A stretch of DNA of 64,000 nt. Source: Clostridiaceae bacterium. GTDB lineage: Bacteria > Bacillota > Clostridia > Peptostreptococcales > Natronincolaceae. Where the stretch lies: assembly GCA_020832135.1 (NCBI GenBank), contig JAFIFG010000123.1:62001-126000 (forward strand), written 5' to 3'. Made by a program: the position numbers and the translations under genes. Positions within the stretch are counted from its first letter, which is position 1; each line of letters opens with the position of its first letter. Below the pieces are notes generated by a model. The model had not been told where the DNA came from. It did not search any database and was given only the letters and a program-made list of their open reading frames with translations. Below are positions 20,562 through 33,188 of this stretch, piece by piece.

Positions 20562-21362
20562 CTAAAAGTTAGAAAATAGCATAGCATCACTAATAGCCTC
20601 TTTAGATTGAATTTCTTCAAAATATCCCAGTAGCTTTTCAATGGTAAGACTTTTCTTTTCTTCTCCTTTAATATCCAGTACAACTTTCCCCCTGTGAAAC
20701 ATAAGCAGTCTATTACCTAGGGATATAGCTTGATTTAAATTGTGGGTTACCATCAAGGTAGTAATTTTTTTCTTTAATACAATGGCTTCCGTAAGCTCAA
20801 TAATTGTCTTGGAGGTTTTAGGATCTAGAGCTGCTGTATGCTCATCCAATAACAGCAACTGTGGATTTGACATCGTGGCCATTAAAAGAGATAATGCCTG
20901 CCTTTGTCCTCCTGATAAAAGCCCCACTTCTGTATGAAGTTTATCCTCTAGTCCAAGGGATAGTTGAGATAATAGATCGATGAAAAAAGGGATATTGTCT
21001 TTTGAGACACCTAAGGACAGATTAAACTTTTTCCCCTTATTATAGGCCATGGATAAATTTTCTAAAACTGTCATTGAAGGTGAGGTGCCTAAGGTTGGAT
21101 TCTGAAATACCCTACCAAATAATTTCGTCCGCTGAAACTCCCATAGCTTAGTAATATCTTTGCCCTTCAAAGTAATAGCTCCTTCATCACTAGATAAGGT
21201 TCCTGCTACAAGGTTTAAAAAAGAAGATTTTCCCGCACCGTTACTGCCTATAATTGTGATAAAGTCACCTTCTTGGATATCCATCCCTAAGCCATCAAAT
21301 AGGATACTTTCATTTACAGTTCCTTTATTGAAAACTTTTACTAGATTTCGCACCTGTAACAT
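20562..21362 (-). CDS. ABC transporter ATP-binding protein (TrpZ-like)
   Basis: Energy-coupling ATPase of an amino-acid-type ABC importer. It has Walker A GSNGAGKSS, Q-loop VFQNPTLG, signature LSGGQRQAL, Walker B LLLLDEHTAALD and switch His in VTHN. It is 267 residues long with the ATG at 21362, 8 bases after GGAGG. The gene is the last of three and starts inside the permease gene (38-base overlap), implying translational coupling. The EHTAALDPKT form is typical of the clostridial and streptococcal TrpXYZ-type systems; the ligand is uncertain. It falls under the leader at 23313-23555. Confidence 0.93.
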   Translation of the reverse strand: MLQVRNLVKVFNKGTVNESILFDGLGMDIQEGDFITIIGSNGAGKSSFLNLVAGTLSSDEGAITLKGKDITKLWEFQRTKLFGRVFQNPTLGTSPSMTVLENLSMAYNKGKKFNLSLGVSKDNIPFFIDLLSQLSLGLEDKLHTEVGLLSGGQRQALSLLMATMSNPQLLLLDEHTAALDPKTSKTIIELTEAIVLKKKITTLMVTHNLNQAISLGNRLLMFHRGKVVLDIKGEEKKSLTIEKLLGYFEEIQSKEAISDAMLFSNF

Positions 21363-22239
21363 TATGAACACCTCCTATTTTTATAAGGGATTTAAGATTA
21401 AGGTTAAAGGGAAGTTTTTTTCCATTTATACCTAAGGCAGTGATGACAATAATTGAAGTAATAAGTTTTAAATCCGATGGTGGCAGCCCTAATCTTAAAG
21501 CAGAGGCGATGGTGGTTCTATATAAAATAGTTCCAAACAATGCCATAGAAGTAGCTGTTACAAAAGAAAAGCGTTTTAAAAGGGCTTCTCCTAAAATAAT
21601 AGCGGCTAATCCCATAATAATCATACCTGTTCCCATACCAACATCAGAGAATCTTTGGTACTGTGCCATCATGGATCCTGATAAAGCTACAAGACCATTT
21701 GAGAGCATTAAACCCATAATTTTCATCATTCCTATATCGATACCGAGGGAGGTTACCATTTGAGGGTTATCTCCAGTGGCTCTTAAAAGAAAACCTAGTT
21801 TAGTTTTAAAAAATAAGTCTAAGAGAAGCTTTGCTACAAAAACAAAAATTGCAACGATAAGAACTGGAGGTAAGCTATTAGAAAATATAGTTTCTTGAGT
21901 AAATAATGGAATATTGGCTCTACCCATGATTCTTAGGTTGATGGAATATAATCCAATCATTACTAAAATTCCTGATAAAAGATTAGTTATCTTTAACTTA
22001 ACGTGCAATAAACCTGTAATACCCCCTGATATCATTCCTGCAAACATGGATAATAAGCAAGCTAAAAAGGGATTGATGCCCATGACTAAAAGTGTAGCTG
22101 TAACAGCAGCTCCCAAAGGGAAGCTGCCATCTACAGATAAATCCGGAAAATCTAATATTTTATAAGTAATATATACACCTAAGCTCATAATAGCAAATAT
22201 AAGACCCTGTTCTAGAATGCTTAACCAAAAGCTAGTCAT
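21325..22239 (-). CDS. ABC transporter permease (TrpY-like)
   Basis: Membrane permease of the BPD_transp_2 (branched-chain amino acid/ribose) fold, with about eight helices in 304 residues. It contains ILDFPDLSVDGSFPLGAAV near the N terminus and the ATGDNPQMVTSLGID cytoplasmic loop that couples to the ATPase. Both are characteristic of permeases paired with TrpX-type binding proteins. The start at 22239 overlaps the stop of the binding-protein gene (8-base overlap), again suggesting coupling. An alternative ATG at 22254 would add five residues. Confidence 0.92.
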   Translation of the reverse strand: MTSFWLSILEQGLIFAIMSLGVYITYKILDFPDLSVDGSFPLGAAVTATLLVMGINPFLACLLSMFAGMISGGITGLLHVKLKITNLLSGILVMIGLYSINLRIMGRANIPLFTQETIFSNSLPPVLIVAIFVFVAKLLLDLFFKTKLGFLLRATGDNPQMVTSLGIDIGMMKIMGLMLSNGLVALSGSMMAQYQRFSDVGMGTGMIIMGLAAIILGEALLKRFSFVTATSMALFGTILYRTTIASALRLGLPPSDLKLITSIIVITALGINGKKLPFNLNLKSLIKIGGVHNVTGAKSSKSFQ

Positions 22240-23266
22240 TTTGTACCACACCATCCTTTATCAAAGTAGCATTTTTCTTTAAGTCTTCAGGAATTGTTAG
22301 ATTAAGTTTTTCTGCTGTGTCAAGGTTAATGGAAAGCTCTAAATCCTCAAGTGTACCAATAGACATATCAGCTGGATTTTTTCCATTAAGCACTTCCACA
22401 GCCATGGAAGCAGTTTGTAAACCTAACCTGTAGTAATCTACACCTTCAGTGGCAAGAGCACCACCCTTTACATGAGCTGGCTCAGCCCCTATAACGGGAA
22501 TATTATTTTCAATAGCTTTAGTTGTAATTAGGGGCATAGAGGATGCCACTACATTGTCTTTGATGGTATACAAAACATCTACTCTACTTAATAAGTAATC
22601 TAAAGATTGATTTACATCATTAATACTATTTACAGAAGCGGTAACTATTTCCATACCAAAGTTAGAAGCTACTTCCTTAGCAGTATTAACTTGAACCTCT
22701 GAATTTGTTTCACTGGTGTTATATAATATACCAACCCTTTTGGCATTAGGGACGAATGTTTTCATCAATTGAAAATGCTTTTCTGGTGGTGTTGCATCAC
22801 TGGTACCTGTTACATTGGTGCCAGATCTTTCCCAAGAATCAACAAGACCAGCCGCCACTGGATCTGTTACTGCTGTAATTAAGATCGGGATATCTTTAGT
22901 GGCTTGAAAAGCTGTTTGAGCTGTTGGTGTAGCAATAGCTAGGATTAAATCCTTTTTCTGAGCTGAAAAGCTTTCGCCAATAGTTTGGGCTGTAGCAATT
23001 TCACCTTGAGCATTTTGAAGCTCAAAAGCGATGTTTTCTCCCTCTATAAAACCCTCAGCTGCTAAACCATCAATAAAACCTTCTCTTGCAGCATCTAAAG
23101 CTGGATGCTCAATGATTTGTGTTATACCAACTTGAATAACTGTTGTTTCTGTAGCCTCCTGCACATCTTCTGCTGGTGAAGTAGAGGTATCTGTACAACC
23201 TACCAATAACACCCCAATTAAAAGCAAACTCACAATCACACTTAACGTTCTTTTCATTCCTACCAT
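22232..23266 (-). CDS. ABC transporter substrate-binding lipoprotein (TrpX family)
   Basis: Extracellular lipid-anchored binding protein of 344 residues. The signal peptide ends in the lipobox LLVGC (Cys24), followed by a Ser/Thr/Glu linker. The mature part is the ABC_sub_bind (DUF534) two-lobe fold with QVGITQIIEHPALDAAREGFIDGL, ITAVTDPVAAGLV, VTGTSDATPP and PVIGAEPAHVKGGALATEGVDYYRLG, the last hallmark stretch cited here only in part. Family members bind Trp, Tyr or other small ligands; histidine is a candidate because of the HutP regulator next door. Strong site AAGGAGG. It is the first gene of the operon, 47 bases after the attenuator. Confidence 0.92.
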   Translation of the reverse strand: MVGMKRTLSVIVSLLLIGVLLVGCTDTSTSPAEDVQEATETTVIQVGITQIIEHPALDAAREGFIDGLAAEGFIEGENIAFELQNAQGEIATAQTIGESFSAQKKDLILAIATPTAQTAFQATKDIPILITAVTDPVAAGLVDSWERSGTNVTGTSDATPPEKHFQLMKTFVPNAKRVGILYNTSETNSEVQVNTAKEVASNFGMEIVTASVNSINDVNQSLDYLLSRVDVLYTIKDNVVASSMPLITTKAIENNIPVIGAEPAHVKGGALATEGVDYYRLGLQTASMAVEVLNGKNPADMSIGTLEDLELSINLDTAEKLNLTIPEDLKKNATLIKDGVVQND

Positions 23267-23312
23267 ACTACCATCCTCCTTGTAAATTTTAGTTAATATT
23301 ATTTATGGTAAT

Positions 23313-23336
23313 AAAAAAACTCTCCATAGGAGAGTT
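23313..23336 (-). terminator. Leader attenuator of the ABC operon
   Basis: On the minus strand AACTCTCC-TAT-GGAGAGTT is followed by seven T residues: a compact intrinsic terminator placed 47 bases before the binding-protein start and about 185 bases after the operon promoter. Its position inside the leader means that read-through must be regulated. The segment TCTCCTA of its left arm and loop is complementary to TAGGAGA at 23398-23404 in the upstream leader. Confidence 0.85.
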
Positions 23337-23397
23337 AATAGACATGTTATAAAAACCTTTTAACGATACAAAAATAAAAGGTATAAAAAACAGCATA

Positions 23398-23505
23398 TCT
23401 CCTACCAACCTACTATACTACCTATGCCTATGAATTTTTTATAAAATACTTACTACCGTTGCTACCTATTCTACATTCCTACATAATACTATTCTACAAA
23501 AGCTA
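23398..23505 (-). promoter_or_regulatory. UAG-rich leader element, candidate HutP (or TRAP-like) RNA-binding region
   Basis: Read on the minus strand, this 108-base stretch of the operon leader holds 14 UAG triplets plus a GAG and an AAG. The UAG complements start at 23503, 23494, 23489, 23479, 23471, 23466, 23462 and 23453 (cluster 1) and at 23428, 23422, 23418, 23413, 23410 and 23402 (cluster 2). Within the clusters, series with periods of 8-9 bases can be drawn (23479/23471/23462/23453 and 23418/23410/23402). B. subtilis HutP recognises UAG-type triplets spaced by four bases in two clusters. The last UAG-GAG also forms the candidate antiterminator arm. The HutP gene lies just upstream. This is a proposed site, not a proven one. 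Confidence 0.6.
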
Positions 23506-23526
23506 CAAACAATAAACTTAAAAGCA

Positions 23527-23555
23527 ATTATATACAATTATCTGATAAGTGTCAA
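23527..23555 (-). promoter_or_regulatory. Consensus sigma-A promoter of the ABC operon leader
   Basis: On the minus strand a perfect TTGACA (23550-23555), a 17-base spacer and a perfect TATAAT (23527-23532). It starts a leader of about 250 bases in front of the binding-protein gene. It lies directly after the hutP stop codon, so the operon can be transcribed independently of hutP. Confidence 0.85.
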
Positions 23556-23575
23556 TAGTAAATCACAATTAAAAA

Positions 23576-23992
23576 TTATAGTTCTGGTAGAGATCTGTGA
23601 CCCAATCCAATGACAACTTCATTTAAATGTAGTAAACCGATGTTCATAAAAATACAGACACTGATATGCTCTCCACTGCGGGCGATACCTATTTTTCCAC
23701 CGACATTTAACCCATTTGCTTTAATGGATACTTGAGCAATGGCTTCACGACAAGCTCCTGCCACAGCTCCATCATGAACATGGGACTCCTTTGTGACACC
23801 ACTTCGCTTAGAAGCTACGATCGTTCTTTCTATAATTTTAGGTATGGATGAAATCAAATTACCACCTACATCTACTGCAGTTGTATAGATTTTTTCATTT
23901 TTATATTCTTTGATCAGCTGTTCCTCTTCAGTTCTTGAAGAAATGGCCATCTGAATCGATGCCTTAGCAGCATCGTTGCTGTTTCCTTTCAT
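23576..23992 (-). CDS. hutP: HutP family RNA-binding antiterminator
   Basis: Homologue of HutP, the histidine- and Mg2+-activated protein that binds UAG-containing leader RNA and prevents termination in the B. subtilis hut operon. It has 138 residues (B. subtilis 148). Matching blocks are IVASKRSGV (B. subtilis ASKKSGV), KESHVHDGAVAGACREAI (RESH region with metal-binding His) and the C-terminal VVIGLGHRSLP with another conserved His. No hut genes are in the window. Instead, the next genes on the same strand are an ABC importer operon behind a UAG-rich attenuated leader. That position equals the hutP-terminator-structural gene order in Bacillus, so the transporter is its likely target. Site AGAGGTG precedes ATG. 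Confidence 0.85.
   Translation of the reverse strand: MKGNSNDAAKASIQMAISSRTEEEQLIKEYKNEKIYTTAVDVGGNLISSIPKIIERTIVASKRSGVTKESHVHDGAVAGACREAIAQVSIKANGLNVGGKIGIARSGEHISVCIFMNIGLLHLNEVVIGLGHRSLPEL

Positions 23993-32636: not shown

Positions 32637-33188
<552 letters not shown>

Follow-up and report, generated by a model that had tools for sequence, protein, structure and literature searches.

A HutP relative with an altered UAG spacing appears to have been reused in many Clostridia to shut off a tyrosine importer

The stretch of 64,000 nucleotides of clostridial DNA that we analysed as a whole (the window; contig JAFIFG010000123.1) carries, on its reverse strand, a hutP gene, a leader region and an operon for an ABC importer of the trpXYZ type, the features of which are collected in Table 1. 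The original prediction, made from the letters alone, had described hutP, a perfect promoter belonging to the leader itself, 14 UAG triplets in two clusters, an intrinsic terminator and an ABC operon, and all of these are confirmed by profile searches, by shuffling and by the agreement of the promoter with its consensus. Two further elements had been missed: around the start codon of trpX (23279-23260) there is a UAG pair, and the segment holding the last UAG is complementary to the terminator.

Table 1. Features of the hutP-trpXYZ locus, in window coordinates.
Feature	Position	Strand	Remarks
hutP	23576-23992	(-)	138 aa; PF09021, 154 bits vs cut-off 25
hutP product, HutP-family regulator of the trpX-linked "tyr-type" subfamily	23576..23992	(-)	profile and predicted fold
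Leader promoter, sigma-70-type, TTGACA-N17-TATAAT	23555-23527	(-)	12/12 consensus
UAG cluster 1, 8 UAGs	23453..23505	(-)	
UAG cluster 2, 6 UAGs, 3' end GGUUGGUAGGAGA	23402..23430	(-)	
GUAGGAGA, proposed antiterminator 5' strand, holds last UAG	23398..23405	(-)	8 bp complementary to 23333-23326
A+U-rich hairpin ACCUUUUA...UAAAAGGU	23355-23382	(-)	read by eye; in minimum-energy fold
Intrinsic terminator AACUCUCC-UAU-GGAGAGUU, then U7	23336-23318	(-)	
Start-site motif GGAGGAUGGUAGUAUGGUAG	23260..23279	(-)	Shine-Dalgarno with GAG, UAG, AUG, UAG, 8-nt steps
trpX-like gene, ABC substrate-binding lipoprotein, predicted tyrosine binder (Glu262, Tyr278)	22232..23266	(-)	PF04392
trpY-like gene, ABC permease	21325..22254	(-)	PF02653 (BPD_transp_2)
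trpZ-like gene, ABC ATPase	20562..21371	(-)	PF00005

The 14 UAGs of the leader (23505-23402, clusters of 8 and 6 with 22 nt between them) are packed more densely than UAGs anywhere else in the window, on either strand. Mononucleotide shuffles of this stretch contain 4.1 ± 1.8 UAGs, with a maximum of 12 in 20,000, which rejects base composition alone as the cause of the richness. The next-highest UAG peak, at 32951 (+) of the window, falls within an apparent pyrR coding region and is no leader. Promoter-like hexamers are present in 65 of 74 related leaders; a terminator is recognised in 58 of them and none in the other 16. The A+U-rich hairpin is situated between the array and the terminator and is followed by U5, so that it could act as an additional weak terminator. 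The window contains no Rfam match, T-box RF00230 included, which rules out a T-box or riboswitch in this leader, and a leader peptide is unlikely by our own reading because the UAGs put an end to the short frames.

The strong signal of the array resides in the spacing of the triplets and not in their count alone, since TAG is only 1.26-fold more frequent in the related leaders than expected from dinucleotide shuffles. Among 56 leaders, a spacing of 8 (UAG-N5-UAG) occurs 170 times versus about 20 in dinucleotide shuffles, followed by a spacing of 16 (84 occurrences) and then by 3, 5, 11 and 9. The triplet period of B. subtilis HutP is 7 nt (N4), and a spacing of 7 is found here 19 times, that is, at the background level; both the periods of 8-9 bases and the variant spacing code suggested from the single leader are thereby upheld. 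UAG-N5-UAG is present in 69 of 74 leaders, and three UAGs in steps of 8-9 nt (UAG-N5/6-UAG-N5/6-UAG) in 62. The array is strand-specific, as TAG is encountered 1135 times in the 74 leaders and its reverse complement CTA 323 times. The counts over these 74 leaders are not independent, since some species were reached twice and all the leaders share ancestry. The array of locus L028 contains UAGAAGUU several times in tandem, which makes an exact repeat of 8 nt, and a peak of 16 UAGs at locus L068 was set aside as a simple ATTAGGG/ATTAGAG repeat.

A scan of public genomes provided 80 further hutP loci, in most of which trpXYZ lies 3' of hutP, and in most of the 12-kb hutP loci UAGs are densest between hutP and trpX. 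When the two genes are separated by 1-6 kb or lie in opposite orientation (L028, L040, L046, G198, G074), the array and the start motif are located at trpX; the array thus belongs to the leader of the importer and is no tail of hutP. The comparison of related loci proposed with the original prediction shows the array kept with the importer: at least two TAGN5TAG are found in 20 of 22 hutP-linked trpX leaders but in none of the 23 readable leaders that precede trpX homologues in genomes lacking hutP (a few fetched stretches that could not be placed being excluded). None is found in unlinked paralogues, and both hutP and a UAG array are lacking from the trpX copies of genus g47. At L028 (9500-12408), several tandem binding-protein genes stand behind a single UAG array, and the start motif is present at two of these genes (ATGGTAG / ATGGCAG).

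The window hutP is the single PF09021 match found by a profile search of its genome. The AlphaFold2 model of its product has a pLDDT of 90, and the top 11 matches of a fold search of the PDB with this model are all HutP (TM 0.67-0.80), a relationship that was not recovered when the clostridial HutPs were compared with the PDB by sequence profiles. In an alignment between subfamilies that share 24% identity (window HutP versus B. subtilis HutP), His73, His77 and His138 of the B. subtilis protein, its metal and histidine ligands, correspond to Gly75, Gly79 and Glu125, and these three residues are invariant across 23 relatives of the window HutP. The invariant His71, His122 and His132 of the tyr-type proteins could serve as substitute ligands. 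The hut-type clostridial HutPs keep all three ligand histidines. Genome G208 possesses both types; its hut-type paralogue precedes hutH-hutU, and the leader ahead of these genes displays UAG-N4-UAG-N4-UAG immediately 5' of a terminator. Among all the loci scanned, a hutH match occurs only at the hut-type locus L254, and in the genome of the window hutG-hutH are located elsewhere with no hutP nearby. The view that the system controls uptake and not catabolism is supported, its target being an importer of the trpXYZ type.

The product of trpX scores 301 bits against the TrpX family NF041285, below the cut-off of 390, and its best match in the PDB is 6HNI, the C. difficile protein CD0873 with bound tyrosine (311 bits). 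The study of CD0873 ascribes the specificity of such proteins to two positions, Glu and Tyr for tyrosine, Ala and Tyr for phenylalanine, and Ala and Gln for tryptophan (PMC6816091). The Glu and Tyr pair is present in 77 of 80 hutP-linked binding proteins. In relatives, T-boxes for Trp (UGG), Phe (UUC) and Tyr are found upstream of trpX homologues; with specifier codons read by eye from alignments, the pair occurs in 4 of 4 relatives under a Tyr T-box and in 0 of 2 under a Trp T-box, those under a Phe T-box being mixed. The pair is also common in hutP-less relatives and therefore marks the substrate of the transporter, and only indirectly the ligand of HutP.

At its 3' core the array has the form UAG-N5-UAG-N5/6-UAGGAGA. 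The segment with the last UAG, GUAGGAGA, shows 8 bp of complementarity to UCUCCUAU at the terminator's 5' arm and loop, which makes it a candidate antiterminator strand. For 37 distinct leaders, which share ancestry, the pairings of each leader with its own terminator beat 19,919 of 20,000 permutations, 81 reaching the true score (p about 0.004, a moderate value). Terminators of differing sequence keep their partner, as in AGGCGAG/CUCGCCU (L035) and UAGGGA/UCCCUA (L021); AGAAC/GUUCU in L051 and L055 was seen by eye, the scoring script having chosen other registers there. The pairing is of 5 bp only in the Romboutsia-like group, and leaders of the L040/L126 type have no clear one. When the UAGs are kept unpaired in a folding model, the antiterminator is lost and the terminator retained. 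A genome-wide search of 41 genomes with the attenuator-core pattern gave matches beyond trpX that look like chance.

A second site lies over the ribosome binding site of trpX, where a near-invariant GGAGGAUGG-UAG-N-AUG-G-UAG overlies the Shine-Dalgarno sequence and the start codon; GGAGGAUGGUAGNAUGGUAG amounts to GAG-N5-UAG-N5-UAG across the Shine-Dalgarno sequence, the start codon and codons 2-3 of trpX. The strict motif is found in 65 of 74 hutP-linked leaders and the others have mostly near variants. It is retained in the leaders devoid of a recognised terminator, and the UAG is kept despite changes of the encoded peptide (ATGGCTAGG, ATGGTTAGG). In the genome of the window, the perfect TGGTAGNATGGTAG occurs only at the trpX start site; with two mismatches allowed, the matches equal in number those of the reversed control, so that no further site can be claimed in this genome. 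Among 297 genomes of the order, the motif is present in 21 of 50 with hutP versus 1 of 247 without (Fisher p 1.7e-17, kinship ignored), motif and hutP thus occurring together in 21 of the 22 motif-bearing genomes. The match of the sole hutP-less genome lies within a coding stretch, and the match in G010, within a coding stretch and lacking a Shine-Dalgarno sequence, was taken as chance.

The start motif also precedes other genes. In G327, G316 and G309 it stands before Na+ symporters whose best PDB match is 4us3 (MhsT), and two of these symporter genes have in addition a T-box with the specifier UAC (Tyr). In G084 it precedes a DAHP synthase. An exact GGAGGATGGTAGNATGGTAG opens genes of SSS-like Na+/solute symporters, identified from sequence only, in seven genomes of other clostridial families (G402, G429, G594, G534, G574, G628, G710; loci L349-L355 and L356-L362); some of these motifs are directly 3' of a promoter and a terminator, and the stretches fetched around them contain no hutP.

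The model we propose builds on what the comparison of loci brings out: the linkage of array, start motif and hutP, the 8-nt code, the complementarity to the terminator, the tyrosine signature of the target and the existence of a separate hut-type paralogue. A tyrosine-responsive HutP paralogue would repress the neighbouring importer both by attenuation and by blocking the start site, through UAGs placed 8 nt apart, a reading of the sequences to which we assign a probability of roughly 0.6. In this model, the HutP paralogue would carry an aromatic amino acid as its ligand, L-tyrosine being the most likely one, and would then bind the 8-nt-spaced UAGs in the leader of the adjacent tyrosine importer operon. 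The capture of the UAG cluster ending in GUAGGAGA would deny the antiterminator its pairing with UCUCCUAU and the terminator would form. At a second level, HutP bound to GAG-N5-UAG-N5-UAG over the Shine-Dalgarno sequence and the AUG of trpX would block translation. When tyrosine becomes scarce, HutP would release the RNA, the antiterminator would form and the importer would be made. The physical binding of HutP to the RNA, the nature of the ligand and the direction of the response are what we infer in this scheme. Since UAGs are found in the candidate antiterminator strand and over the ribosome start, binding should repress; repression, and not antitermination of the B. subtilis type, is thus predicted from the anatomy of the leader, and the opposite sense in which B. 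subtilis HutP acts is a point against it. Tyrosine is the best single guess for the ligand because of the Glu/Tyr pair, of the start motif at the Tyr-T-box symporters and the DAHP synthase, and of the replacement of the ligand histidines, and another aromatic amino acid may take its place.

The original prediction had favoured the same read-through logic as in B. subtilis, in which histidine or another ligand, together with a metal, would promote the binding of the UAGs, prevent the terminator and switch the importer on. The family of the protein is the same; the two UAG clusters 5' of the terminator are about 20 nt apart, as are the two clusters of three NAGs bound by B. subtilis HutP (PMC7430163); and the hut-type HutP of G208, with its UAG-N4 spacing before the terminator ahead of hutH-hutU, would fit this logic. 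At the importer, however, the last UAG belongs to the candidate antiterminator strand and not to the terminator; the ribosome start lies under a UAG pair, a motif that persists even where no terminator is recognised; invariant Gly, Gly and Glu stand in place of the metal-ligand histidines; and the target is an importer of the tyrosine type. All of this renders the classical logic unlikely here. Histidine as substrate or ligand, also put forward at first, is likewise unlikely, given the tyrosine signature of the binding protein, the replaced metal and histidine residues and the hut-type paralogue that stays with hutH-hutU.

The architecture of a repressor could be right and its ligand be tryptophan, phenylalanine or a catabolite of tyrosine, to which the Trp (UGG) and Phe (UUC) T-boxes found beside those for Tyr upstream of importer relatives would lend weight, as would the DAHP synthase, an enzyme that serves all three aromatic amino acids. 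We consider such a ligand doubtful: the Glu/Tyr pair of 77 of the 80 linked binding proteins is absent from both Trp-T-box relatives checked, and the two T-box specifiers adjoining a start motif both read UAC. That the UAGs are the target of a different protein, either TRAP or some NAG binder, with hutP as a mere neighbour, seems to us quite improbable. The array does go with trpX and not with hutP, and the start motif precedes SSS-like symporters in stretches where no hutP was seen; but HutP is known to recognise UAG/NAG (PMC7430163), motif and hutP coincide in 21 of the 22 motif-bearing genomes of the order, and TRAP itself is ruled out as the partner, the search for mtrB suggested at the outset having found no gene with PF02081 (TrpBP domain) in a profile search of the genome of the window.

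To our knowledge, histidine-activated antitermination of a single Bacillus operon is the only role in which HutP is known in detail. The system described here shares with that of B. subtilis the family, the fold and the presence of UAG/NAG clusters close to an intrinsic terminator, which lies between the gene of the regulator and the controlled operon, and differs from it by the 8-nt period, the replaced metal-ligand histidines, the tyrosine-uptake target, the predicted repression, the additional ribosome-start site and the leader's own promoter. It resembles TRAP/MtrB in that an amino-acid-charged protein acts on NAG repeats overlapping an antiterminator and a ribosome start (PMC7430163), an arrangement that is proposed here, and in having aromatic amino acid genes as targets. 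TRAP requires 11 repeats spaced by 2-3 nt (PMC7430163), and HutP is an unrelated protein, PF02081 being absent here. The trpXYZ operons controlled by T-boxes encode the same importer family with the same physiological role; unlike them, the present leader has no tRNA-sensing RNA, and the UAG system replaces the T-box or, in two symporter genes, joins it. For the CD0873-CD0874 tyrosine importer of Clostridioides difficile the likeness is that of the protein, CD0873 being the closest solved relative with the same specificity residues.

We incline to the view that Clostridia possess at least two HutP regulatory lineages, a histidine/hut antiterminator and a tyrosine-sensing repressor convergent with TRAP, which would combine attenuation with occlusion of the ribosome start and use an 8-nt instead of a 7-nt code. 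If so, most trpXYZ-linked clostridial HutPs would respond to an aromatic amino acid by repressing its uptake, the sign being opposite to that of the Bacillus protein and the spacing another, and a second, unrelated protein family would have solved the problem of TRAP. The two types would constitute a natural pair of paralogues in which to trace how specificity for the ligand and for the spacing of the RNA sites shifts on a single fold, and tyrosine uptake in Clostridia would have a protein-based control beside the T-boxes. The 20-nt start signature is usable for regulon prediction. In the open-access literature, we found no paper joining HutP, Clostridium and tyrosine.

Other members of the family occur in different surroundings. 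In genomes of the Anaerovorax/Sinanaerobacter type (L064-L083), hutP lies between a penicillin-binding protein gene and comEC-holA with no UAG array beside it, and the trpX-like genes are under T-boxes, mostly for Trp. Divergent HutP-like proteins (83 and 57 bits) at L257 (2036-2452, (-)) and L258 (2081-2485, (+)), which may represent a third HutP lineage, are flanked by apparent genes of an IclR-type regulator and an M20-type peptidase, without a UAG array. At L255 (1250-1590, (-)) and L256 (2885-3210, (+)), a hut-type hutP is found in the order hutI-fchA-hutP and is followed by a leader with its own promoter, a UAG-N5-UAG-N5-UAG-like array and a terminator, ahead of an apparent DctP-type TRAP transporter gene that is possibly a further HutP target.
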